Source: Agromyces sp. Root81 (GTDB lineage: Bacteria; Actinomycetota; Actinomycetes; Actinomycetales; Microbacteriaceae). From it: a stretch of DNA of 64,000 bases. The notes under the pieces are model-generated. The model was given only the letters and a program-made list of their open reading frames with translations. It had not been told where the DNA came from and searched no databases. The stretch is taken from contig NZ_LMIR01000002.1 of assembly GCF_001429165.1 (NCBI RefSeq), positions 449,183 to 513,182 on the forward strand, written 5' to 3'. The first letter of the stretch is position 1; every line of letters begins with the position of its first letter. Shown here piece after piece: positions 13,911-25,200 of this stretch. The translations under genes were made by a program, and so were the position numbers.

Positions 13911-16379
13911 TTAGAGCTTCTCGATGGGCGCGATCTTGATGAGGAGCTTCTTCTGGCCCGCGGTGTCGAAGCTCACGTGGGCGATGCGCTTGGTGCCCTC
14001 GCCCGTGACCTGGGTGACCTTGCCCTCGCCGAAGTCGGTGTGGCGGATGCGGTCGCCGGCCGCGAGCGTGAGGTCGCCGTTGTCGCGCACCGTGCCGGTG
14101 ACGCGGTTGGCCCACTCGGTCTTCGGCTTGTCGGAGCGGGTGACGCTGAACCGCTCGAGGTCGCGATCGCGCGTGCCCCAGGCGCCGCCTGGCGCACCGC
14201 GGCGGGCGTTCAGGGCGCGCGGCTGCGTGCCGCCCCGGGAGGTCGCCATGCCGGGCGACTGGCGCCAGTCGATGAGCCCCTCGGGGATCTCCTGCAGGTA
14301 GCGCGACGGCATCGCCACGGCGACCTCGCCGAACTGCGCCCGACTCATCGCGAGCGAGAGGTAGAGGCGCTTGCGGGCACGGGTGATGCCGACGTAGAAG
14401 AGCCGGCGCTCCTCGGCCGGGCCGCCCGGCTCGGAAGCCGACATCTGGTGCGGCAGGAGCCCCTCTTCGATGCCGGTCAGGAAGACGGCGTGGTACTCGA
14501 GCCCCTTGGCCGTGTGCAGCGTCATGAGCGAGACGGTGCCCGATGCGTCGTCGAGCTCGTCGGCCGCCGCCACGAGCGAGACCTGGGTGAGGAAGTCGAC
14601 GAGAGTGGCGCCCGGGTTCTCGCGATCGAAGTCGCGGGTCTGGGCGACGAGTTCTTCGACGTTCTCGGCGCGGGTCTCGTCTTGCGGGTCGCGGCTGTTT
14701 CGCAGCGCGTCGAGCAGGCCCGACCGCTCGACGAGGAAGACGAGCACGTCGGAGACCTTCGCGGCTCCGACATTGGTGCCCGCCTCGATGCCCTCGGCCG
14801 ACGGCACGAGCATGGCCGCGGCCTCGTCGAGCACGTTCGCGAGCGCGGAGATCGCGCCCGTCACCTTCGGCCCGAGCCCGAGCCCGTCGGCCGCGCGCAT
14901 CGCCTGGCGGAAGGTGAGTTCGTTCTGCTCGGCGAAGGAGGCGAGCGCCGTCTCGGTGGCCGGACCGATGCCGCGCTTCGGCGTGTTCAGGATACGGCGC
15001 AGCGCCAACTCGTCGACGGGGTTCGCGACGGCGATGAGGTAGGCCATCGCGTCCTTGATCTCGGCGCGCTCGTAGAACTTCGTGCCGCCGACGACCCGGT
15101 AGGGCAGCGCGGAGCGCACGAAGATCTCCTCCAGCGCGCGGGTCTGCGCGTTGGTGCGGTAGAAGACGGCGATGTCGCGATAGGCCACGCCCTCGCGATG
15201 CAGCGACTCGATCTCGTCGGCGATGAACTGCGCCTCGTCGTGCGCCGTGTATCCCGTGTAGCCCGTGATCTTGTCGCCGTCGCCGTCGGCCGTCCAGAGC
15301 TTCTTCTCTTTGCGGTCGAAGTTGTTCGAGATGACGGCATTGGCCGCGGACAGGATGTTCTGCGTCGAGCGGTAGTTCTGCTCGAGGAGCACGACCTTCG
15401 CGCCGGGGAAGTCGCGCTCGAACTCCGAGATGTTGCGGATGTCGGCCCCGCGGAACGCGTAGATCGACTGGTCGGAGTCGCCGACGACCGTGAGGCTCGC
15501 GCCCGGGATCGACCCGGAGCCATCGGTCAGCCCGCGCACCAGGATGCCGTGCTCGTCGAGTTCGGCGACGATCTCGCGCGGCACCGACCGGGTCAGCTCG
15601 TGGATGAGCGAGTACTGGGCGTGGTTCGTGTCTTGATACTCGTCGACGAGGATGTGCCGGAAGCGACGCTGGTAGAGCGCGGCGACCTTCGGGAAGGCGC
15701 GGAAGAGGTAGACGGTCTCGGCGATGAGGTCGTCGAAGTCGAGCGCGCTCGCCGCGCGCAGCCGCCGCGTGTACTGCCGGAAGATCTCGAGGAACATGAC
15801 CTCTTGCGGGTCGTTCGTGTTCGCGTTGCGCGCGTGGGTCTCGACGTCGGTGAGTTCGTTCTTGAGCTTCGAGATCTTGGCCTGCGCGCTCGCGGGCGTG
15901 AAGCCCATGGTGTCGGCGGCGAGCTCCTTGATGATGCGCTTGAGGATCGTGCGCTGGTCGGCCGAGTCGTAGATCGTGAACGTCGACGACATGCCGATCG
16001 ACTCGGCCTCGCGGCGGAGGATGCGCACGCACGCCGAGTGGAACGTCGAGATCCACATGCCGGAGGCGCTCTCGCCGAGCAGCGCCTGGACGCGCTCGCG
16101 CATCTCGGCGGCCGCCTTGTTGGTGAACGTGATCGCGAGGATCTGGCTCGGCCACGCCTCACGGCTCTCGATGAGGCTCGCGATGCGGTGCGTCAGCACG
16201 CGCGTCTTGCCGGAGCCGGCGCCCGCGACGATGAGCAGCGCAGGGCCGCGGTACTCGACCGCCTCGCGCTGCTCGGGGTTCAGGCCGTCGGTCAGTCGGG
16301 AGCCGGTGGTGGCCGCATCGGAGGCGGGCGGCGCCTCGCGCCAGCCGGCCGGGTCGTCGGGGTCGAGGATCAGCGTCAT
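13911..16379 (-). CDS. pcrA: ATP-dependent DNA helicase PcrA/UvrD
   Basis: 822 residues, superfamily 1 helicase of repair and recombination. Motif Q/I: LNPEQREAVEY ... VAGAGSGKTRVLTHRI (about residues 35-63). Motif Ia: AITFTNKAAAEMRERV. Motif II: LVDEYQDTN. Motif III: GDSDQSIYAFRGA. Motif IV: EQNYRSTQNIL. Motif V/VI: TLHTAKGLEYHAVFL and RRLFYVGITRARKRL. The C-terminus (VSFDTAGQKKLLIKIAPIEKL) is the PcrA RNA-polymerase-binding tail. ATG 16379 follows TTGGAGGGAC; TAGACT (16389-16394) lies just upstream and includes the TAG stop of the P450 gene. Confidence 0.96.
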   Translation of the reverse strand: MTLILDPDDPAGWREAPPASDAATTGSRLTDGLNPEQREAVEYRGPALLIVAGAGSGKTRVLTHRIASLIESREAWPSQILAITFTNKAAAEMRERVQALLGESASGMWISTFHSACVRILRREAESIGMSSTFTIYDSADQRTILKRIIKELAADTMGFTPASAQAKISKLKNELTDVETHARNANTNDPQEVMFLEIFRQYTRRLRAASALDFDDLIAETVYLFRAFPKVAALYQRRFRHILVDEYQDTNHAQYSLIHELTRSVPREIVAELDEHGILVRGLTDGSGSIPGASLTVVGDSDQSIYAFRGADIRNISEFERDFPGAKVVLLEQNYRSTQNILSAANAVISNNFDRKEKKLWTADGDGDKITGYTGYTAHDEAQFIADEIESLHREGVAYRDIAVFYRTNAQTRALEEIFVRSALPYRVVGGTKFYERAEIKDAMAYLIAVANPVDELALRRILNTPKRGIGPATETALASFAEQNELTFRQAMRAADGLGLGPKVTGAISALANVLDEAAAMLVPSAEGIEAGTNVGAAKVSDVLVFLVERSGLLDALRNSRDPQDETRAENVEELVAQTRDFDRENPGATLVDFLTQVSLVAAADELDDASGTVSLMTLHTAKGLEYHAVFLTGIEEGLLPHQMSASEPGGPAEERRLFYVGITRARKRLYLSLAMSRAQFGEVAVAMPSRYLQEIPEGLIDWRQSPGMATSRGGTQPRALNARRGAPGGAWGTRDRDLERFSVTRSDKPKTEWANRVTGTVRDNGDLTLAAGDRIRHTDFGEGKVTQVTGEGTKRIAHVSFDTAGQKKLLIKIAPIEKL

Positions 16380-16391
16380 GTCCCTCCAAGT

Positions 16392-17582
16392 CTAGGCGCG
16401 GCCGCCGACACCCCTGCCGAGCACGACGCTCCGATAGCCGGGGATCAGCACCCCGCGCGCGACGCGCCGCGAGTGCACCTCGAGCGGCTGCTCGACGGCG
16501 GCGTCGAGCACCGCCGAGAGCATGCCGCGGATCTGCGCCATCGCGAGCGGAGCCCCCAGGCAGAAGTGCGATCCGGCGCCGAACCAGAGCTGCCTGAGGC
16601 TCGCCGCGGGATTGCCCACCGGGTCGAATCCCGGCGCGATCCGATCCGCGAGGAAGGTCGCGAGCACGACCCGTTCGCCCGGGCGCACCACGACGTCGCC
16701 GATGCACGACTCCCGCACCACGCTCCGCAGCATGACCGGCGACGGGGTCGTCACGCGGAGCCCCTCGGCGATCGCCGGGTCGACGTGCTCCCGCTCCGTG
16801 GCGAGGCGGCCGAGCCATCCGGTGTCCGCCAGCAGGCAGATGAGCCGCGGCAGGTAGGCGACGAGCGTCTCGGTCCCCGTCAGCACGAAGGCGCCGACCG
16901 CGCCGAGCGACTCCTCCTCGTCGAGCCCGAGCTCGCGCATACGGCCGGGCACGGTGTCGGGATCGCCGCGGCGCCACGCCTCCGCGGCGTGCCCGGTGAG
17001 CTCGGCCATGACCTCGCGTGCGTGCCGCACCTGCGCAGGGGTCATCCGCGGCCGGGAGAGCCGCACCGCACCGGTCACCGTCGCGATCCGGCGGAACAGC
17101 CGGTCGTCGACGACCTCGGGCGGCAGCCCCACGAGGGTCGAGATCACCGCGCTCGCGCACCGTCGCGCCTCGGCCACGAGTTCGACCCGCTCCCCCGCTG
17201 CGAGGCGCGCGCGCAGGGACTCGAACGGCCCGCCGAGCGTGCGATCGACGAGCGAGCCGACCGCCGCCGGGGTGAAGAGCGGCGCGAGCCTGCGCCGGAG
17301 CTCCAGGTGGTCCGCACCCTCCATGTTCAACAGCACGCGCGGTCCGAGCACCGGTGTCCAGAGCTCGCTCGGCGCCCCCGGGCCGGTCTTCGTGTACGAG
17401 ACGGTGTCCATGAGCACGGCGCGCAGCAACGCGGCATCCGTCACGACCGTGCCGATTCCGGGCACCCGCAGGGCCGGTCGCGTGATGCGCGCGAGCATCG
17501 GATAGGCGATCGGATGCGCCGCGCGCATCACGCGCTCCTCCCACCGCATCGCGGTGCGGTCGGGTGCCGGCGCGAGCGTCAC
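16392..17582 (-). CDS. Cytochrome P450
   Basis: 396 residues from GTG 17582, which overlaps the KAS III stop as GTGA. Heme ligand loop FGAGSHFCLGAPLA with Cys341; ExxR helix as EGLR in AEGLRVTTPSP; I-helix LTGTETLVAYL in place of the usual AGTDTT, so the acidic residue is Glu. Soluble, with no N-terminal membrane anchor, as is normal for bacterial P450s. No ferredoxin or reductase gene lies nearby, so electrons must come from elsewhere. Last gene of the biosynthetic operon; probably oxidises a lipid or glycolipid intermediate (inference). Confidence 0.93.
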   Translation of the reverse strand: MTLAPAPDRTAMRWEERVMRAAHPIAYPMLARITRPALRVPGIGTVVTDAALLRAVLMDTVSYTKTGPGAPSELWTPVLGPRVLLNMEGADHLELRRRLAPLFTPAAVGSLVDRTLGGPFESLRARLAAGERVELVAEARRCASAVISTLVGLPPEVVDDRLFRRIATVTGAVRLSRPRMTPAQVRHAREVMAELTGHAAEAWRRGDPDTVPGRMRELGLDEEESLGAVGAFVLTGTETLVAYLPRLICLLADTGWLGRLATEREHVDPAIAEGLRVTTPSPVMLRSVVRESCIGDVVVRPGERVVLATFLADRIAPGFDPVGNPAASLRQLWFGAGSHFCLGAPLAMAQIRGMLSAVLDAAVEQPLEVHSRRVARGVLIPGYRSVVLGRGVGGRA

Positions 17583-18628
17583 CACCGCAGCACCGTGACA
17601 CCCAGGCTGATGCCGCCGGCGAGGCCGACGAGCGCGACGAGGTCGCCCGGCCGGAGTCGGCCCTGCTCCCGCGCGCGGGCGAGCTGCACCGGCAGCGACA
17701 CGCTCGCGAGGTTGCCGTGCGCCGAGATCGTCTCCTCGGTGATCGACGGGTCGACGCCGAGGAGTTCGACGATGCGGGTGTGCATGGGCAGCGCAACCTG
17801 GTGCACGGCCACGAAGTCGAGCGCCCCGGCTTCGAGGCCGAGACCCGCGAGCGTCTCGTGGAAGATGCCGAGCCCGACGCGACGGAACGCCCGTTCGAGC
17901 GCACGCCCGTCCATGTCGAAGTAGCTCCCGCCGATCGCGTGCGGGTTGATCGAGCCCCCGGTCGGCAGCGTGCCGACGTCCCAGTACTGCGAGTGCGCGC
18001 TGAATCGGGAGCCGATGATGCCGACGCCCGAGTCGTCGCTGGCCTCGAGCACCACGGCGGCACCGCCGTCGCTCATCGTGTAGCCCGGGAACGAGCGCAG
18101 GAACTGCGCGTCGCCGTCGAGCTTCCACCGCACGGCGTGCGAGGGCTGCTCGCCGCTCACGACGAGCGCACGCCTCGCCTGCCCCGTCGCGATGAGCGCC
18201 TCGGCGACCTGCATGCCGACAAGCAGGCTGTTGCACGCGTTCTTGACGTCCATGACGGCCGCCGTCAGCCCGAGCTTCGCGGCCACGATGTGGGCGGTCG
18301 CCGGCTCGATCAGGTCCTGGCTGGCCGAGGCGAAGACGAGCAGGTCGATCGGCCCAGGCGACTCGGCGAGCGCCGCGCGCGCCGCCGCCACGGCGAGATC
18401 GGAGGTCTGCCACCCTTCGGGCCGCACATGCACGCCGCGCACACCCGTGAGCCGGGCGATGATGCCGGTCGGCAGCGAGAGCCCGGGATTCGCCGCGGCG
18501 ATGCGGGCCTCGGTCTCGCTCGTCGACCGCCAGTCCTCCGGCAGGTGCACGCCGAGGCCCGCGATGCGGGCGGAGGTCGTCCAGCGCGCGGCATCCGGTC
18601 GCTGCAACCGTTCGCCCAACAGCGTCAT
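17579..18628 (-). CDS. KAS III family condensing enzyme, OleA-like
   Basis: 349 residues from ATG 18628 (ATGA overlap with the upstream glycosyltransferase). Thiolase-fold triad visible: Cys132 in MDVKNACNSLLVGM, His276 in VAVHQVALP, Asn306 in SAHGNLASVSLP. The active-site context NAC, rather than the AAC of FabH, and the ending VALVGLAGGISLG resemble OleA, which condenses two acyl-CoAs head-to-head. A stand-alone KAS III beside a reductase and an adenylating enzyme indicates a dedicated pathway rather than housekeeping fatty acid initiation. Substrate unknown; FabH-like elongation starter or ester synthase (CerJ-like) remain alternatives. Confidence 0.85.
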   Translation of the reverse strand: MTLLGERLQRPDAARWTTSARIAGLGVHLPEDWRSTSETEARIAAANPGLSLPTGIIARLTGVRGVHVRPEGWQTSDLAVAAARAALAESPGPIDLLVFASASQDLIEPATAHIVAAKLGLTAAVMDVKNACNSLLVGMQVAEALIATGQARRALVVSGEQPSHAVRWKLDGDAQFLRSFPGYTMSDGGAAVVLEASDDSGVGIIGSRFSAHSQYWDVGTLPTGGSINPHAIGGSYFDMDGRALERAFRRVGLGIFHETLAGLGLEAGALDFVAVHQVALPMHTRIVELLGVDPSITEETISAHGNLASVSLPVQLARAREQGRLRPGDLVALVGLAGGISLGVTVLRW

Positions 18629-19995
18629 GCCATCGCCCCGCTCTGTTCGCCGCCAGCGCCGACTCCCGACATCCATGCCTCCTCGATCAGATCCGCCGCG
18701 CCCGTCGCGCCGTCGCGGTGTTCGCTCGCCAGCCGGAACCGTGCGAGCGCGAGCCGCCGTCCATCGCTCGGGGCGAGCGCCCGCTCGATCGCCGCTGCGA
18801 GCCTGGTCGCCCCCGCAGCGCCGCGCACGGCCGACGGGGCGAGACGTTCCGCGAGTCCATGGTGCACGAGACGCGCAGCGAGATCGGGCTGGTCGTAGTC
18901 GACCGGGATCACGACCGCTGGCAGCCCCGCGGCGAGCGCGGCATGCACGATGCCCGCGCCGCCGTGGTGCACGATCGCGTCGTAGCCGCCGAGCTCGCCG
19001 TAGTCGGCGTAGTCGATGAGGTGCACCCGGGCGTCTCGGGCCCCGTTCGCCCCGAGATCGCCGTCCGGCTGCGTGCCGCCGAGCGTCATCTCGAGATCCA
19101 CGCCCGGCAGCAGCGCCGCGGTCCGCTCGACGATGCCGAGGAGTTCCGCCTTCGTCGCCGCCAGGTGGGTGCCGCAGGAGACGAGCACCAGCGGCCGGCG
19201 GCTCACCGCGGCATCCGTCGACGAGGTCACGACCGGCGGCGCAGCGGATGTCTCAGCGCCCCACGCCCCCGGACGACCGGGCGGCGTGTACCGCACGGGC
19301 CCGACGAACCGCATCGCGGGCGGCCAGGTGCGCGGCAGCTCGAGCTCGGGGAGCCCGAGGCCGAGCACCAGCTCGGGCGAGTACACCTGCTCGGTACCGT
19401 CGGCGCGGAACGCCCCCGAGAACCCGAGCGCCTGCAGCGGTGCCGCGTTCATCGCGAAGACCCCGCGCTTGAACGCGCGCGCTGCACCCCGCGCTGCGGC
19501 GTCGCGCACCCGTCCGGCCGCACCGCGCGGCGGCGCCCACCCGCCGAAGTACGCCGGGGTGCCGTCGACCGAGCCGATCGCGACCGGCGAGGCGATGACG
19601 GTGATCCAGCGCGCGCCATGGCGATGCGCGGCGATGCCGGCGACGGGCAGCGTGAAGTCGGCGACGACGACGGCGGGCCGCTCGTCGCGGTATCTCCGTT
19701 CGAGTTCGTCGCCGATCGTGCCGAGCACTCCGAGCGTGCCGCGGAACTGCCGGTGCAGTCGAACCGGGTTCGCGCCGATGCGCTCCGGCGGGTCGGCGAT
19801 GCCGGCGATCACCCGGTCGTCGGCGCTCTCGAGCGCCACCGCGGTGAGGCCGGCGGCCTCGATCTGGGCGCGGGCCGCCTCGGTGCTCACGACGCGAACG
19901 GGCACGCCGCGACGCGCCAGTTCGACGCCGATGCCGAGCGTCGGATGCAGGTGGCCCGCGAACGGCGGCGACACGAGTTCGACGTGGCCGGTCAT
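18625..19995 (-). CDS. MGT/UGT-type glycosyltransferase (GT1 family)
   Basis: 456 residues from ATG 19995 (ATGA overlap with the upstream gene). GT-B fold: an N-terminal acceptor domain opening VELVSPPFAGHLHPTLGIGV, with the catalytic His in GHLHP-type position, and a C-terminal nucleotide-sugar domain with LVLVSCGTHL, then YDAIVHHGGAGIVHAALAAG and PVDYDQPDLAARLVHHG, the family donor-binding signature. Relatives glycosylate macrolides, sterols or carotenoids. In this operon it probably adds a sugar to the product of the KAS III/SDR/P450 enzymes; acceptor unknown. Confidence 0.88.
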   Translation of the reverse strand: MTGHVELVSPPFAGHLHPTLGIGVELARRGVPVRVVSTEAARAQIEAAGLTAVALESADDRVIAGIADPPERIGANPVRLHRQFRGTLGVLGTIGDELERRYRDERPAVVVADFTLPVAGIAAHRHGARWITVIASPVAIGSVDGTPAYFGGWAPPRGAAGRVRDAAARGAARAFKRGVFAMNAAPLQALGFSGAFRADGTEQVYSPELVLGLGLPELELPRTWPPAMRFVGPVRYTPPGRPGAWGAETSAAPPVVTSSTDAAVSRRPLVLVSCGTHLAATKAELLGIVERTAALLPGVDLEMTLGGTQPDGDLGANGARDARVHLIDYADYGELGGYDAIVHHGGAGIVHAALAAGLPAVVIPVDYDQPDLAARLVHHGLAERLAPSAVRGAAGATRLAAAIERALAPSDGRRLALARFRLASEHRDGATGAADLIEEAWMSGVGAGGEQSGAMA

Positions 19996-20564
19996 GCCGG
20001 CACTCCCTGCTCGGCGCGGAGCCGCTCGATCGCCGCGACCACGATGTCGCGGAGCTCGGGCGACGACAGGTAGTCGAGGTGGTGGGCGTCGATCTCGTGG
20101 TCGGGTGTGCCGGTCGAGCGTCGGGCGAGCGCGTCGGCGCGGCCCGTCACGGTCTCGAGCCGCGCTGCGACCGGGCGCGATCTCGCCACCGGCCCGTAGG
20201 CGACGACGTGCAGTCTGGCGAGCACGTCGTCGTCGAGGCGGAGGTTCGCGAGGAGTTCGAGCCCGCAGCTGCCGGCGAGCACGAGCGTGCGGTCCGACGC
20301 GGCGAGCGCCTCGCTCACGGCGGCCCGGTGTTCGTGTGCGAACGCGGCCCGACGCGAGCCGAAGTAGTCGCGCGCGTTGCGCACGCTCGCGATCGGCAGC
20401 GGCGTGCGCCGCCACGGGCCGCTCGCGGGCCGGTAGGGGAAGTTCACCTCGACGCGCTCCTCGGTTGTGATCGGCAGTCCGTCGAGGAAGGCGCGCTGCA
20501 CGGGCGAGAGCGCGGTGTTCGACCGGTCGCTGCGGCCCGTCAGGAAGCAGACCCTGATCGTCAT
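19992..20564 (-). CDS. Unknown 190-residue protein in the biosynthetic operon
   Basis: Start ATG 20564 overlaps the upstream glycosyltransferase stop (ATGA), and its own stop overlaps the next start, so it is a genuine coupled gene. Visible features are a hydrophobic strand ending in LVLAGSCGLELLANL (a possible nucleophile-elbow-like turn, though the first Gly of GxSxG is Ala) and a late His-rich stretch DHEIDAHHLDYL that could hold a catalytic His. Taken together this could be a small degenerate alpha/beta hydrolase, but I cannot assign it to a family. Cytoplasmic; no signal peptide. Confidence 0.8.
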   Translation of the reverse strand: MTIRVCFLTGRSDRSNTALSPVQRAFLDGLPITTEERVEVNFPYRPASGPWRRTPLPIASVRNARDYFGSRRAAFAHEHRAAVSEALAASDRTLVLAGSCGLELLANLRLDDDVLARLHVVAYGPVARSRPVAARLETVTGRADALARRSTGTPDHEIDAHHLDYLSSPELRDIVVAAIERLRAEQGVPA

Positions 20565-21736
20565 CGCGCCTCCTCCTCGAAGTGGTCGTTCGCGTGCACG
20601 ACGTAGCGGCTGCCGCGCCAGACGATGCGCCGGTCGGCGATCGCCCGGCCGAACTGCAGGGGCAGCGCGAGTTCGCCCGCGAGCGAGAGGAACGGGTCGT
20701 GCCGCACCTTCCCGGTGACGATGCGCTGCACGACGGCGATGACCGCCGAGCGCACGGCGAGGGTGGCGGCGAGCGCCGCGACGCGGGTCGTCGACGGCCG
20801 AACGGCGGTCGAGGCCACGAGCGCGCCGAGCAGCACCGACGGCACCGCGTATCCCGCCACGACACCCGCGCGCCACGCCGAGCGCTCCGCCCGGAGCAGG
20901 AGCCCAGCGAAGACCATCCAGCGGTGCATGAGCTCGCGGTAGCTGCGGCCGCTCTCGACCGTCGTCGAGACGAACTGCACGACCTCGCTCTGGTCGATCG
21001 TGCCGCCCGTCTCGCGCACCCGGGTCGCCACGGCGAGGTCGTCGGCCAGCAGCGGCAGCAGCGGGGCGAAGCCGCCGAGCCGTTCGAGGGTGCCCCGCCG
21101 CATCGCCCAGGTCATGCCGTTGATGGTGCGCGGGCTGCCGATCGCCGCGGCGGGCAGGTACGAGAGTGTGGCCTGGTCGTTGACGAACTGCGCGAGCAGT
21201 CGCGACCAGGCTCCCGGCCCCGGCACGTAACTCGGCAGTCCGGTGCTCACCTCGGCGATGCGCAGCCCGTCGCGGAGCGCGGCGAGCCCGGCGGCCGTGA
21301 CGCTCGTGTCGTCGTCGACGACCGCGAACGCCTCGGTCTCGATGAGGGGCTCCGCCAGGTGCAGCTTGAAGGTCTTGGGTCCGGTCCGGGCCGGGCACGG
21401 CGGGCAGTCGACGATGCGCACGTCGGCGAGCGGATGCCTCGAGCTCGCCTCCTCCGCGGCGCGGCGCCCCTCGGGGTCCGCCGTGTCGACGAGCCACAGC
21501 ACCGGCGAGTCGTTCGCGACCTCGAGCGTGTTCGCGAGGGTGGCCGCGAGCTGCGGGTCGCCCGAGAGGATCGGTTGCACGATCGTGAGCTCCGACGACG
21601 GCACCGTCGAGCCCGATGCCGAGCGCAGGCGGGCACGGCGCCGACGGACGGCGACGGCCGCGAGCGCCGCCTTCGCGAGCATGAGCGCCGAGTAGCCGAG
21701 CGCGGCGGTGACGGCGAAACGGTCGGATCGTCTCAT
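20561..21736 (-). CDS. GT2/GT21-like membrane glycosyltransferase (ceramide glucosyltransferase-like)
   Basis: 391 residues; ATG 21736 overlaps the SDR stop. One N-terminal membrane segment (about residues 8-30), then a GT-A domain with VVDDDTS (Asp141-143), ADDLAVATRVRETG (Asp232-233) and HRW (271-273) standing in for QxxRW, then about three C-terminal hydrophobic segments (about 275-345). This order is that of GT21 enzymes, which glycosylate ceramide-type lipids, and of HpnI-like proteins. It suggests the operon product is a membrane-associated lipid. Donor and acceptor are not deducible. Confidence 0.85.
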   Translation of the reverse strand: MRRSDRFAVTAALGYSALMLAKAALAAVAVRRRRARLRSASGSTVPSSELTIVQPILSGDPQLAATLANTLEVANDSPVLWLVDTADPEGRRAAEEASSRHPLADVRIVDCPPCPARTGPKTFKLHLAEPLIETEAFAVVDDDTSVTAAGLAALRDGLRIAEVSTGLPSYVPGPGAWSRLLAQFVNDQATLSYLPAAAIGSPRTINGMTWAMRRGTLERLGGFAPLLPLLADDLAVATRVRETGGTIDQSEVVQFVSTTVESGRSYRELMHRWMVFAGLLLRAERSAWRAGVVAGYAVPSVLLGALVASTAVRPSTTRVAALAATLAVRSAVIAVVQRIVTGKVRHDPFLSLAGELALPLQFGRAIADRRIVWRGSRYVVHANDHFEEEAR

Positions 21737-22725
21737 CGGGTCACCTCCGCCGCGCCACGCACCGCTGTGATGGTGCGGGCGAGCCCCTCGGCCATCGTGA
21801 CGCTCGGCGGTCCGAGCAACGCTCGCGCGTGCGAGACGTCGAAGGTCTTCGACGAGGCGAGGAGCCAGACCGCGTACCGGGTGAGCGGCGGTTCACCGCG
21901 GAGGCGGCCGAGGCGCCACACGGTCTCTGCTGCGGCGGCGAGACCGAGCGCCGGCCCGCGGCCGAGGTGCCGGGTCGGCACGGGCACGTCGAGTTCGGCG
22001 AGGATCCGGGCGATCGTCGGCATAAGCGGCACGGGCTCCCCGTTCGTGAGGTTCACGCAGGTGCCGGAGAGCCCCGGCAGCAGTGCCGCGGCGATGAGGT
22101 GATCGACGACCGTGTCGATGTAGACCAGGTCGCCGACGGCGGGCGCGGCCCGGTCGCCGATGAACGGCAGGCGCCCGGCGGCCGCCGCCTCGACGATGCG
22201 GGGCAGCAGGGTCGTGTCGCCCGGCCCGAACACGGCTCGTGGGCGGGCGATGACCCATTCGCCCGGGTAGTCGCGCACGAGGAGTTCGCCCTCGTGCTTC
22301 GTCCTGGCGTAGTCGTTCAGGTAGTCGGGCCCGATCGGCGTCGCCTCGGTGATGTCGTACTGGTCGGCCGGCCGGTAGAACACCGAGGTCGATGAGACGT
22401 ACACGACGCGGGGCAGGCCAGTGCGGCGCGCGAGATCGAGCACGTTCGCGGTCGCGTCGACATTCTGGGCGCGGAACTGCGCGCGAGTGCCCCACTGGCT
22501 CGCCCGCGCCGCCGCGTGCACGATGACGTCGGGGCGGAACTCGACGGCGAACGGCGCGGAGATCGGCCGGACGAGGTCGACGCTCGCGATGTCGGCGTCG
22601 GGCACCTGCCGCCGTCCGACCCCGCGGACCTCCACGCCGGGGCGTTCGCGGAGCGCCCGCAGGAGGGCGCCGCCGACGAATCCGGTCGCGCCGGTGATGA
22701 GGATCCGTACGGGTTCAGCCGGCAT
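21733..22725 (-). CDS. Extended SDR, OleD / 3-beta-HSD-like reductase
   Basis: 330 residues; ATG 22725 has GAGGAG eight bases upstream and overlaps the preceding gene by 11 nt. Rossmann motif TGATGFVGG (residues 11-19); catalytic Tyr139 and Lys143 in NDYARTKHEG; upstream Ser in VVYVSSTSVFY. The segment VIVHAAARASQWG followed by FRAQNVDATANVLDLAR resembles OleD and sterol dehydrogenase relatives. In olefin biosynthesis OleD reduces the beta-keto acid made by OleA, so pairing with an OleA-like KAS III suggests the same ketoreduction here (inference). Confidence 0.87.
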   Translation of the reverse strand: MPAEPVRILITGATGFVGGALLRALRERPGVEVRGVGRRQVPDADIASVDLVRPISAPFAVEFRPDVIVHAAARASQWGTRAQFRAQNVDATANVLDLARRTGLPRVVYVSSTSVFYRPADQYDITEATPIGPDYLNDYARTKHEGELLVRDYPGEWVIARPRAVFGPGDTTLLPRIVEAAAAGRLPFIGDRAAPAVGDLVYIDTVVDHLIAAALLPGLSGTCVNLTNGEPVPLMPTIARILAELDVPVPTRHLGRGPALGLAAAAETVWRLGRLRGEPPLTRYAVWLLASSKTFDVSHARALLGPPSVTMAEGLARTITAVRGAAEVTR

Positions 22726-24115
22726 CGGCGGTCTCCTCGTTCACCGCGGCGCAGGTGATGCGCACGTTCTTGGCCCCCGGCGACCGCGACGGGAGTGGGA
22801 CGAATCGCAGCGCGGGAAGCTCCGCGTCGACCGTCTCGAACAGTTCGGCGAGCGCGCCCCGAACCGCGCGCTCGGATTCGGCGTCGAGCGGATCGAGCCC
22901 GACCTCGAGGGCGCCCGGCGACCAGCGGATGCCCCACTCCCCCGCCTGCGCCATCGTCAACGTCCGCCGCACGATGTCGGGGAGGACCCGCACGATGCGC
23001 CCGTCACCGCCGTGAGCCTCGATCACCTCGTCGGCGCGCCCTTCGACCGCCTCGATGACGCGCGCGGGGTTCCCGCACGGGCACCGCTCATCACCGGCCG
23101 GCATCCGCAGCACGTCGTCGAGGCGGTACCGCACGATGAGCTGCGTGCTGCGATCGAAGTCGGTGACGATCGGCACGAAACGCCGGCCCGCGGCATCGGG
23201 GTCCGGCGCGTCGATCCACTCGGCTTCGACCACGACGCTCTGCTCGTTCAGGTGCAGCCGCCCGTGCTCGCAGTCGAGGGCGAGCAACCCCTCCGTCGCC
23301 TGGTACACCCGCCGCGGCCGTACACCCCACGTCGTTCCGACGAGCTCGGCATCGAGCTCGTCGAGCACCTCCGCGACGGCGACGACGAGCCGGGGCGCGA
23401 CGTCGAGCTCGCCGCGACGCTGCGCGCGGGCGAGTTCGACGAGCACGCTCGACGGGGCCACGAGCACGTCGGGTCGGGCGGCCGCGGCCGCCCGCCGGAT
23501 CCGGTCGAAGGGCGCGACGAGATCGATGAAGGCGAACGACAGGCGCCGGCTCGCGACGGACTCGTAGAGGTTGCTGTTCGCACGCAGGGCGAAGGCGATG
23601 CGCAGCGGTGGCCGCCACGGCTGCACGAGCTGGACGACGCTGCGGCGGTCGAGCAGCCGGCCGAGCACGGTGCCCGCCCAGCGTATGCGCTCCGCGGGGT
23701 CGACGAGGAAGACGCCCGGACGACCCGAGGTGCCGCTCGAGAGCCCGACCGTCACACCCCCGGGGAGTTCACCGCGGAAGTCGCGGCTCTCCTCAGCGGC
23801 ACGCGCCTCGGCGAGCGCCGTCTCGAGCGCGATGCCGAACACGTTGAAACCCGAGAAGTCGGCGAGCACGGTCGCCTTGTCGACGACGGGCGCGTCCTCG
23901 AGCCGCTCGAGCCCGCCGCCGTAGTGGGCGGCACGAGGCATCCGCTCGCGCAGCAGCCGTTCGAGGCCGCGACGCCGACGTCGTTCGAGCCCCGCCGGCC
24001 CGCCGATGCGGTCGCCCCACCGCGCGCGGACGAACCGCGCCGCCGCGATCGCCTGCAGCCGCACCGCCGACCGCCGGGCGCGTCGCTGCGCGCCGGCGTC
24101 GTCGCGCCCCGACAC
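22715..24115 (-). CDS. F390 synthetase-related / PaaK-like adenylate-forming enzyme
   Basis: 466 residues from GTG 24115, which begins two bases after the stop of the upstream gene. ANL-type adenylation motifs: GLSSGTSGRPG (residues about 125-134, phosphate loop), YQATEG (271-276), a late RYRLDDVL (329-336) followed by CPCGNP. This is the compact PaaK/coenzyme F390 synthetase subfamily, not the larger OleC type. Such enzymes activate a carboxylate as acyl-AMP and often transfer it to CoA. Coenzyme F390 itself is not implied. It probably activates a substrate or intermediate of the operon. Confidence 0.85.
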   Translation of the reverse strand: MSGRDDAGAQRRARRSAVRLQAIAAARFVRARWGDRIGGPAGLERRRRRGLERLLRERMPRAAHYGGGLERLEDAPVVDKATVLADFSGFNVFGIALETALAEARAAEESRDFRGELPGGVTVGLSSGTSGRPGVFLVDPAERIRWAGTVLGRLLDRRSVVQLVQPWRPPLRIAFALRANSNLYESVASRRLSFAFIDLVAPFDRIRRAAAAARPDVLVAPSSVLVELARAQRRGELDVAPRLVVAVAEVLDELDAELVGTTWGVRPRRVYQATEGLLALDCEHGRLHLNEQSVVVEAEWIDAPDPDAAGRRFVPIVTDFDRSTQLIVRYRLDDVLRMPAGDERCPCGNPARVIEAVEGRADEVIEAHGGDGRIVRVLPDIVRRTLTMAQAGEWGIRWSPGALEVGLDPLDAESERAVRGALAELFETVDAELPALRFVPLPSRSPGAKNVRITCAAVNEETADAG

Positions 24116-24117
24116 GC

Positions 24118-25200
24118 TCAGCGGCCTCCCGCCGACGCGGCACGGGCCTCGACGCCGAGGTCCGGGTGGTCGAGGAACACCCCGTCGACCCCCATCCCGA
24201 TCACGAGGGTGAACTCGCCGAGCCAGTCGCCGTAGGCCGCGCGCGCCGATCCCCGGCGGAACGATCCGGAGAGGAATCGGTTCTCGGGGCGCAGGGTCCA
24301 CGTGTAGATCTCGAGGCCGGCGGCGTGCGCTGCGTCGACGAGTTCGGCGCCGATGAGCGGCCTGCCGGGTGCATGACGGACGAGATTCTCGAGCTGCGCC
24401 GCATCCACGTTCTTCGAACGCAGTTCGCCGACGAGGCGGCTCGTGCCGACGCTCACCCCGTCGAACCGGCCGGCGAGGCCGAGCAGCCCTGCCTCGGTCA
24501 CGAAGGAGTCGTACTTCGGGGCGGCCCTGCCCTGCTGGAGCGCGAGATCCCACGGCGTGCCTGAGCCTTCGACGAGCAGCACCCGCTTGCCCCGGATGCC
24601 GCGCGCGCCGAGCCGATCGAGCAGCGTCGGCTCGAACGCCTCCATGATGAGCCGCTCGTCGCCGCGCCCCCACCCCGCAGCGTCGAGCTCCGCTGTGAAG
24701 AGCTCGTCGAGCGGCAGCCCGAGCGCATCGAAGTGCGCGGCGTGCTTGAACTCGGCCACCATGCGCAGCACCCGCCGCTGTTCGTCGGCGGCGACGTCGA
24801 TGACCTCGAAGAGATCGCGCAGGCGGATGATCGGGAAGCGCCCGTCGAAGCTCGCACTCGACTGGCGCAGCGCCCCGAGGCGTTCGCGCGCCCGCAGCGT
24901 CGCGAGTTCGGCCCACGTGAAGTCCTCGGTGAACCAGCCGGTGAGCGCCGTGCCGTCGATCTCGCGCGTGGTGCGGCGGCCGGCGAACTCGGGGCGATCC
25001 GCGACATCCGTGGTGCCCGAGATCTCGTTCTCGTGCCGCAGCACGAGCACGCCGTCGCGCGTGGCGACGATGTCGGGTTCGACGGCGTCGGCGCCGAGCG
25101 CGAACGCGAGCTCGTAGGCCGAGCGCGTGTGCTCGGGGCGATAGCCGGGAGCACCGCGGTGCCCGATCACGAGCGGGCGAGGGGCGTCGTGGTGCTGCAT
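24118..25200 (-). CDS. Glycerophosphodiester phosphodiesterase family protein
   Basis: 360 residues from ATG 25200, with TACGCT (25207-25212) six bases upstream and no Shine-Dalgarno, so probably leaderless. GDPD motifs: IGHRGAPGYRPEHT (catalytic His, Arg, Glu), EPDIVATRDGVLVLRHE (metal-binding Glu/Asp and second His), and a C-terminal GVDGVFLDHPDLG. No signal peptide, so cytoplasmic; it would release glycerol-3-phosphate from phospholipid headgroups. As the first gene before the coupled cluster it may be the start of that operon, though it also occurs alone in relatives. Confidence 0.9.
   Translation of the reverse strand: MQHHDAPRPLVIGHRGAPGYRPEHTRSAYELAFALGADAVEPDIVATRDGVLVLRHENEISGTTDVADRPEFAGRRTTREIDGTALTGWFTEDFTWAELATLRARERLGALRQSSASFDGRFPIIRLRDLFEVIDVAADEQRRVLRMVAEFKHAAHFDALGLPLDELFTAELDAAGWGRGDERLIMEAFEPTLLDRLGARGIRGKRVLLVEGSGTPWDLALQQGRAAPKYDSFVTEAGLLGLAGRFDGVSVGTSRLVGELRSKNVDAAQLENLVRHAPGRPLIGAELVDAAHAAGLEIYTWTLRPENRFLSGSFRRGSARAAYGDWLGEFTLVIGMGVDGVFLDHPDLGVEARAASAGGR

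Follow-up and report, generated by a model that had tools for sequence, protein, structure and literature searches.

The 64,000-nucleotide window analysed here (Agromyces sp. Root81, contig NZ_LMIR01000002.1, positions 449,183 to 513,182; coordinates below are those of the window) holds an operon of seven consecutive minus-strand genes at 16392-24115, read from 24115 to 16392. Membrane hydrocarbons and beta-lactones are products of OleA pathways, and the gene content suggests an accessory lipid operon of the OleA/OleD kind whose product is, on balance, probably a branched hydroxy-fatty-acid lipid that is glycosylated. Of most interest is that the activating enzymes beside OleA alternate, the TIGR02304 enzyme of this operon and an ordinary AMP ligase replacing each other. 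Two unrelated enzyme classes take turns in this role while OleA and the cytochrome P450 stay recognisable, a natural experiment that suggests a concrete substrate and a testable role for TIGR02304, a family whose name rests on similarity.

Two activating enzymes alternate beside OleA

A search with the window OleA found a close OleA in 25 of 299 Microbacteriaceae genomes. A TIGR02304 enzyme stands beside it in eight (G000, G498, G564, G624, G672, G712, G715 and G752), and an ordinary AMP ligase, together with a GT2 glycosyltransferase and a P450, in 16 (within L139-L155; called sister operons below). One further locus (L144, genome G583) is cut by a contig end and stops before the ligase. With tblastn at E up to 1e-8, neither the window nor any of the TIGR02304 stretches fetched shows a sister-type ligase, and the 17 other OleA stretches show no TIGR02304 relative.

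OleA of the 17 loci lacking TIGR02304 is 50-66% identical to the window OleA, the sister-operon P450 is 58-67% identical to that of the window in 15 cases and 37% in the sixteenth, and an OleD-like short-chain dehydrogenase/reductase (SDR) is present in 13 of the 16 sister operons. One of them, in G022, belongs to the window's own genus and lies at a different locus. In an OleA tree, 11 of the 12 TIGR02304-type rows group together (support 84/97, not a starred branch) and the twelfth, G712, is unplaced; the P450 tree needs three changes. For other genomes, gene calls came from a codon-score script, so that starts are approximate and some genes are missed or fused. G544, with TIGR02304 on two contigs, was left out, and the G712 stretch (L054), which breaks off within the P450, contains no SDR. 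A second P450 lies nearby in some sister operons (L142, L145, L147 and L148).

All seven TIGR02304 loci of the neighbouring genera g265 and g280 have a divergent gene for a Sap/Gap-type lipid-addressing protein beside TIGR02304. The reference protein scores 130 bits with PF11139 and the other six are 59-69% identical to it; the copy in L050 was missed by gene calling and recovered by tblastn alone. Such a neighbour fits a lipid product. The Root81 genome has three PF11139 genes elsewhere.

Gene content of the operon

The gene order is TIGR02304 enzyme, SDR, GT21 glycosyltransferase, a 190-residue protein, a GT1 glycosyltransferase resembling the macrolide glycosyltransferases (MGT), ketoacyl synthase III (KAS III) and P450. 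A first-pass annotation of this DNA had named these seven families in a row. The set is indeed found again beyond chance: G036 and G002 have all seven genes in the same order and at the same site, and G072 has them as blast matches. The annotation had also given the junctions as ATGA or GTGA overlaps or gaps below 3 nt. This is accurate for five of them (ATGA at SDR/GT21, GT21/190-residue protein, 190-residue protein/MGT and MGT/KAS III; GTGA at KAS III/P450), while the TIGR02304 stop and the SDR start overlap by 11 nt.

The catalytic motifs to be expected in the operon enzymes are present, and the models for OleD, MGT and HpnI each score under their curated cut-offs, hence the suffix "-like" used here. 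The SDR (21733-22725, 330 aa), an extended-type NAD(P)-dependent reductase with the motifs GATGFVG and YARTK, has the OleD model NF042422 as its best NCBIfam match (177.7 bits against an equivalog cut-off of 580) and is accordingly called OleD-like rather than filed as OleD. The GT21/HpnI-like membrane glycosyltransferase (20561-21736, 391 aa) has three hydrophobic segments and scores 89.2 bits with PF13506, above the gathering cut-off of 21.7, and 95.3 bits with HpnI, under the cut-off of 310. The MGT-like protein (18625-19995, 456 aa) carries the HHGGAG and DQP donor motifs of GT1 type and scores 69 bits with TIGR01426, failing the cut-off of 260. The P450 (16392-17582, 396 aa) is barely above its gathering cut-off (PF00067, 25.7 bits against 22.8) and shows the heme motif FGAGSHFCLG as well as TGTET.

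The condensing enzyme is of OleA type

The KAS III (17579-18628, 349 aa) has the Cys-His-Asn triad of OleA at Cys132, His276 and Asn306. Both in an alignment of 23 KAS III proteins and in one to Xanthomonas campestris OleA (chain 3row), its Glu108-Pro109 takes the position of OleA Glu117-Pro, and this Glu-Pro pair is kept in 32 of the 32 OleA rows compared. According to a published study, Glu117 is essential in X. campestris OleA and Glu117-Pro occurs in all but two of the OleA proteins examined (PMC7064751). Identity of the window protein to OleA of the oleABCD-like sets is 43% in Nonomuraea (L055) and 42% in Streptomyces (L056), and no second close OleA was found in the Root81 genome. By family and hallmark residues, the KAS III is of OleA type, and it is predicted to catalyse head-to-head condensation.

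The TIGR02304 enzyme and its other settings

The first operon gene (22715-24115, 466 aa, GTG start) encodes a PaaK-type adenylating enzyme of the "F390 synthetase-related" family TIGR02304 (290.9 bits, cut-off 251.9) with the motifs SSGTSG, YQATEG and YRLDD. Its sole sequence match in the PDB is PaaK (4r1l, E 6e-6 over about 90 residues). TIGR02304 exceeds its cut-off in 12 of the 299 Microbacteriaceae genomes and, across a phylum sample of 396, in one, the window's own (12 at E up to 1e-30). None of the terms "F390 synthetase-related protein", "F390 synthetase-related" and "TIGR02304" occurs in the literature searched.

A close copy of the TIGR02304 gene of Escherichia coli KE48, used as query, is present in 672 of 5426 E. 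coli genomes, with 670 places chromosomal and two on plasmids. Carriers include the strains Nissle 1917 and ATCC 25922, so TIGR02304 chemistry is testable in easily handled strains. In a plasmid record of E. coli KE48 (L058:6029-12910), the cassette comprises KAS III, SDR, a metallo-beta-lactamase (MBL) hydrolase, TIGR02304, PAP2, a sterol-desaturase-like protein and an acyl-CoA desaturase, and is flanked by narGHJI and purU. No paper evidently about the E. coli KAS III/TIGR02304 cassette came up in the literature searched. In the TIGR02304 cassettes of Paraburkholderia, Paenibacillus and Pontibacillus (L059, L061 and L065) there is an ATP-grasp gene, accompanied in the first two by a GNAT gene, which hints at amino-acid-linked products. 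Among further hits, H30 has KAS III and SDR several kb distant, H32, on a plasmid, has no recognisable partner genes within its stretch, and the records of H1 and H2 are unannotated at the place of the hit.

Comparison with known systems

The first-pass annotation held that the operon fits none of the standard cluster types, a claim that is not supported. In PMC7064751 (mBio 2020), a set of OleA, glycosyltransferase, OleC, P450 and OleD in Actinoplanes atraurantiacus is predicted to make a glycosylated, hydroxylated beta-lactone, and by annotation Streptomyces viridifaciens pKVP2 carries a set of the same type. The window operon shares with this type OleA, P450, an OleD-like SDR, an AMP-forming enzyme, a glycosyltransferase and the lack of OleB. 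It differs in having a TIGR02304 PaaK-type enzyme instead of an OleC-type AMP ligase, GT21 and MGT instead of one GT2, an extra 190-residue protein and another gene order. Because this architecture is in print and 16 of the 25 OleA loci are sister operons, the operon counts as a variant of a cluster kind already published as a prediction, and is new mainly in its activating enzyme and tailoring genes.

Other systems are more distant. The OleABCD olefin operons of Nonomuraea and Streptomyces have in common with the window an OleA-type KAS III and an OleD-like SDR, whereas the window lacks OleB and OleC and adds a P450 and glycosyltransferases. OleACD beta-lactone clusters are named for S. toxytricini and Nocardia brasiliensis in the same paper (PMC7064751). 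They resemble the window in combining OleA and OleD without OleB, but the window has no OleC and does have glycosyltransferases. We take the products of these two clusters to be lipstatin and nocardiolactone. Neither OleB nor OleC was found among the eight proteins scanned with Pfam and NCBIfam, and the genome has no close OleC, the best match to an OleC query being 70 bits and 29% identity over part of its length. Classic OleABCD and plain OleACD assignments were rejected for want of OleB or OleC. The TIGR02304 cassettes of E. coli, Paraburkholderia, Ketogulonicigenium, Paenibacillus, Paracoccus and Pontibacillus share the TIGR02304 enzyme and an SDR; they differ in a KAS III that lacks the OleA glutamate, an MBL hydrolase and other tailoring genes.

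A small protein that may be a hydrolase

The fourth gene (19992-20564) encodes a 190-residue protein that matches no Pfam or NCBIfam model and has no significant sequence match in the PDB. Our own motif reading, which preceded the fold search, found a conserved AGSCG (Ser99), Asp155-His156 and His162, compatible with a serine hydrolase. The structural model, built from two sequences, is of low confidence (mean pLDDT 59.7, pTM 0.64). With this low-confidence model, every one of the top 26 VIA-align rows is a lipase, a cutinase or LCAT (Z 8.4-10.5), with LCAT at 10.5 and lipase A and cutinase at 9.3. Foldseek ranks flavodoxin-like folds first, with a best E of 0.012 and none reaching 0.001. The protein is a possible minimal alpha/beta-hydrolase.

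Proposed pathway and alternatives

In the pathway that we favour, OleA would join two fatty acyl-CoAs head to head to give a 2-alkyl-3-keto acid, which the OleD-like SDR would reduce to a 2-alkyl-3-hydroxy acid. The TIGR02304 enzyme, occupying the slot of the sister AMP ligase and presumably performing the same step, would adenylate this hydroxy acid. The P450 may hydroxylate an acyl chain, sugars would be attached by the membrane GT21 and afterwards by the MGT, and the small putative hydrolase could transfer, trim or cyclise the activated acyl group. The resulting glycosylated lipid may be a beta-lactone, an ester or a glycoside. This logic resembles mycolic-acid making, in which condensation, reduction and activation are followed by transfer by an alpha/beta-hydrolase; the likeness is one of steps and implies no membership. 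A lipid pathway of activation, condensation, reduction, oxidation and glycosylation had already been proposed in the first-pass annotation, and the OleA hallmark and the sister operons support its condensation, reduction, oxidation and glycosylation as far as sequence goes.

Several observations weigh against this reading. The SDR is below the OleD cut-off, and no OleD-like SDR is seen in three of the 16 sister stretches (L152, L154 and L155). In G483, TIGR02304, SDR and P450 occur with no OleA adjacent. A KAS III without the OleA glutamate lies beside TIGR02304 in 8 of the 23 aligned rows (from E. coli, Paraburkholderia, Ketogulonicigenium, Paracoccus, Paenibacillus, Pontibacillus and two Microbacteriaceae), and an MBL hydrolase accompanies such sets; the TIGR02304 reaction is therefore not necessarily tied to OleA chemistry. 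On the olefin beta-lactone synthetase model, three scanned sister ligases reach no more than 62-74 bits and the S. viridifaciens ligase is not listed at E 1e-15, compared with 498 and 403 bits for ligases of the true Ole operons in Nonomuraea and Streptomyces. "OleC" is thus a loose name for the sister ligases, and their step is uncertain. The possible hydrolase assignment depends on a model with low pLDDT and finds no backing from Foldseek. Finally, the seven g265/g280 loci contain no relative of the GT21, MGT or GT2 queries at E up to 1e-8, so that glycosylation would lie outside the shared core, with the sugars an Agromyces addition on the TIGR02304 side.

The best-surviving alternative, although we consider it unlikely, is a glycosylated beta-lactone, with the TIGR02304 enzyme replacing OleC as beta-lactone synthetase and the lack of OleB leaving the lactone intact. 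The enzyme does stand in the slot of the AMP ligase in an operon type that has been read in print as a glycosyl-beta-lactone cluster, and the absence of OleB from the operon and of a close OleC from the genome agrees with such a replacement. However, BLASTP detects no significant similarity between the window enzyme and OleC of L056, and the putative hydrolase could open a lactone. Formation of beta-lactones is not known to us for any PaaK-type enzyme, which also counts against this alternative. A bolder proposal, for which we see a comparably slim chance, is that the TIGR02304 enzymes form another class of beta-lactone synthetase (or hydroxy-acid activator), of PaaK type, that has displaced the AMP ligase in OleA/OleD pathways, that the Agromyces product is a diglycosylated beta-lactone not seen before, and that roughly every eighth complete E. 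coli genome has the same activity beside a different ketosynthase.

The TIGR02304 enzyme might also act first, as a PaaK-like CoA ligase that supplies OleA with an unusual (e.g. aryl or branched) acyl-CoA. Phenylacetate-CoA ligase is its only solved relative by sequence, and its gene is the first of the operon. Yet the OleA proteins of known pathways draw on the cellular acyl-CoA pool, and the sister operons place the ligase late, beside the SDR where one exists; we give this order of steps a slightly lower chance than the lactone. A cluster without a single product, or an unrelated glycoside of hopanoid or terpenoid type, is the least probable: the GT21 is HpnI-like and the SDR has a weak HpnA likeness in NCBIfam, but gene order is conserved in other species, TIGR02304 and the 190-residue gene occur in the same five genomes, and there is no hopanoid-synthesis gene among the operon proteins.

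Insertion site and distribution in Agromyces

The operon was described in the first-pass annotation as an accessory insertion between pcrA and a BI-1 gene. The pcrA side is correct: pcrA (13911-16379, minus strand) starts 12 nt past the P450 stop, a distance so short that it may be co-transcribed. On the other side, a GDPD gene that had been missed (24118-25200, minus strand; PF03009, 113.4 bits) intervenes between the operon and BI-1, only 2 nt upstream of the first operon gene, and is perhaps the first cistron of the transcript. GDPD is matched in 57 of 60 genus genomes, whether or not the operon is present (G078 holds only a weaker paralogue), and pcrA in 59 of 60. Both are near-universal and are therefore host genes, and GDPD was rejected as a pathway gene on the same grounds.

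The distance between GDPD and pcrA was measured in 46 genomes that have the two genes on one contig and in the same orientation. In 23 of these the gap is 53-207 bp, an empty site, and in the other 23 it is 0.8-13.4 kb, with this operon in four. Thirteen genomes with a place for pcrA or GDPD were left unmeasured, including the carrier G082 and G025 and G075, where the two genes are far apart on one contig; G014 has neither gene and stands outside the count. Two GDPD pieces in G017 and two pcrA pieces in G018 were joined by coordinates, and rows of the weaker GDPD paralogue were excluded.

TIGR02304 is above its cut-off in 5 of the 60 genus genomes, and beyond these five the 190-residue gene has one weak match, in G068 (E 7.3e-4). 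The seven-gene set recurs at one site that is empty in half of the measured genomes, a comparison that the first-pass annotation had proposed, and the accessory character that it claimed is supported: this is a real, patchy accessory operon. In Agromyces tardus, taken to be the carrier G082, the operon is in two halves on two contigs. The MGT of G072 matches in two different frames (L031:12295-13616), and this copy may therefore be broken or mis-assembled. The BI-1 gene of G072 likewise matches in two frames (L031:5969-6768), pointing to frameshifts or to errors in the assembly.

In a tree of 58 pcrA rows (G018 entered as a 500-aa piece; G014 and G078 absent), the five carriers need five changes, four of them forced by starred branches, and cluster no better than shuffled labels. 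One clear acquisition is thus unsupported. Operon identities drop roughly in step with relatedness, being highest for G036 and mostly lowest for G072. Repeated loss and repeated transfer together with the flanks fit alike.

The GDPD-pcrA gap is a hotspot of insertion in Agromyces, with varied genes at the site in other species. A pair of YdjC-like and major facilitator superfamily (MFS) sugar-transporter genes recurs there (L028:16225-18437; also L102, L103, L104, L108 and L110), identified by Pfam in L028 and by similar N-termini in the others, and in G036 this pair co-occurs with the operon.

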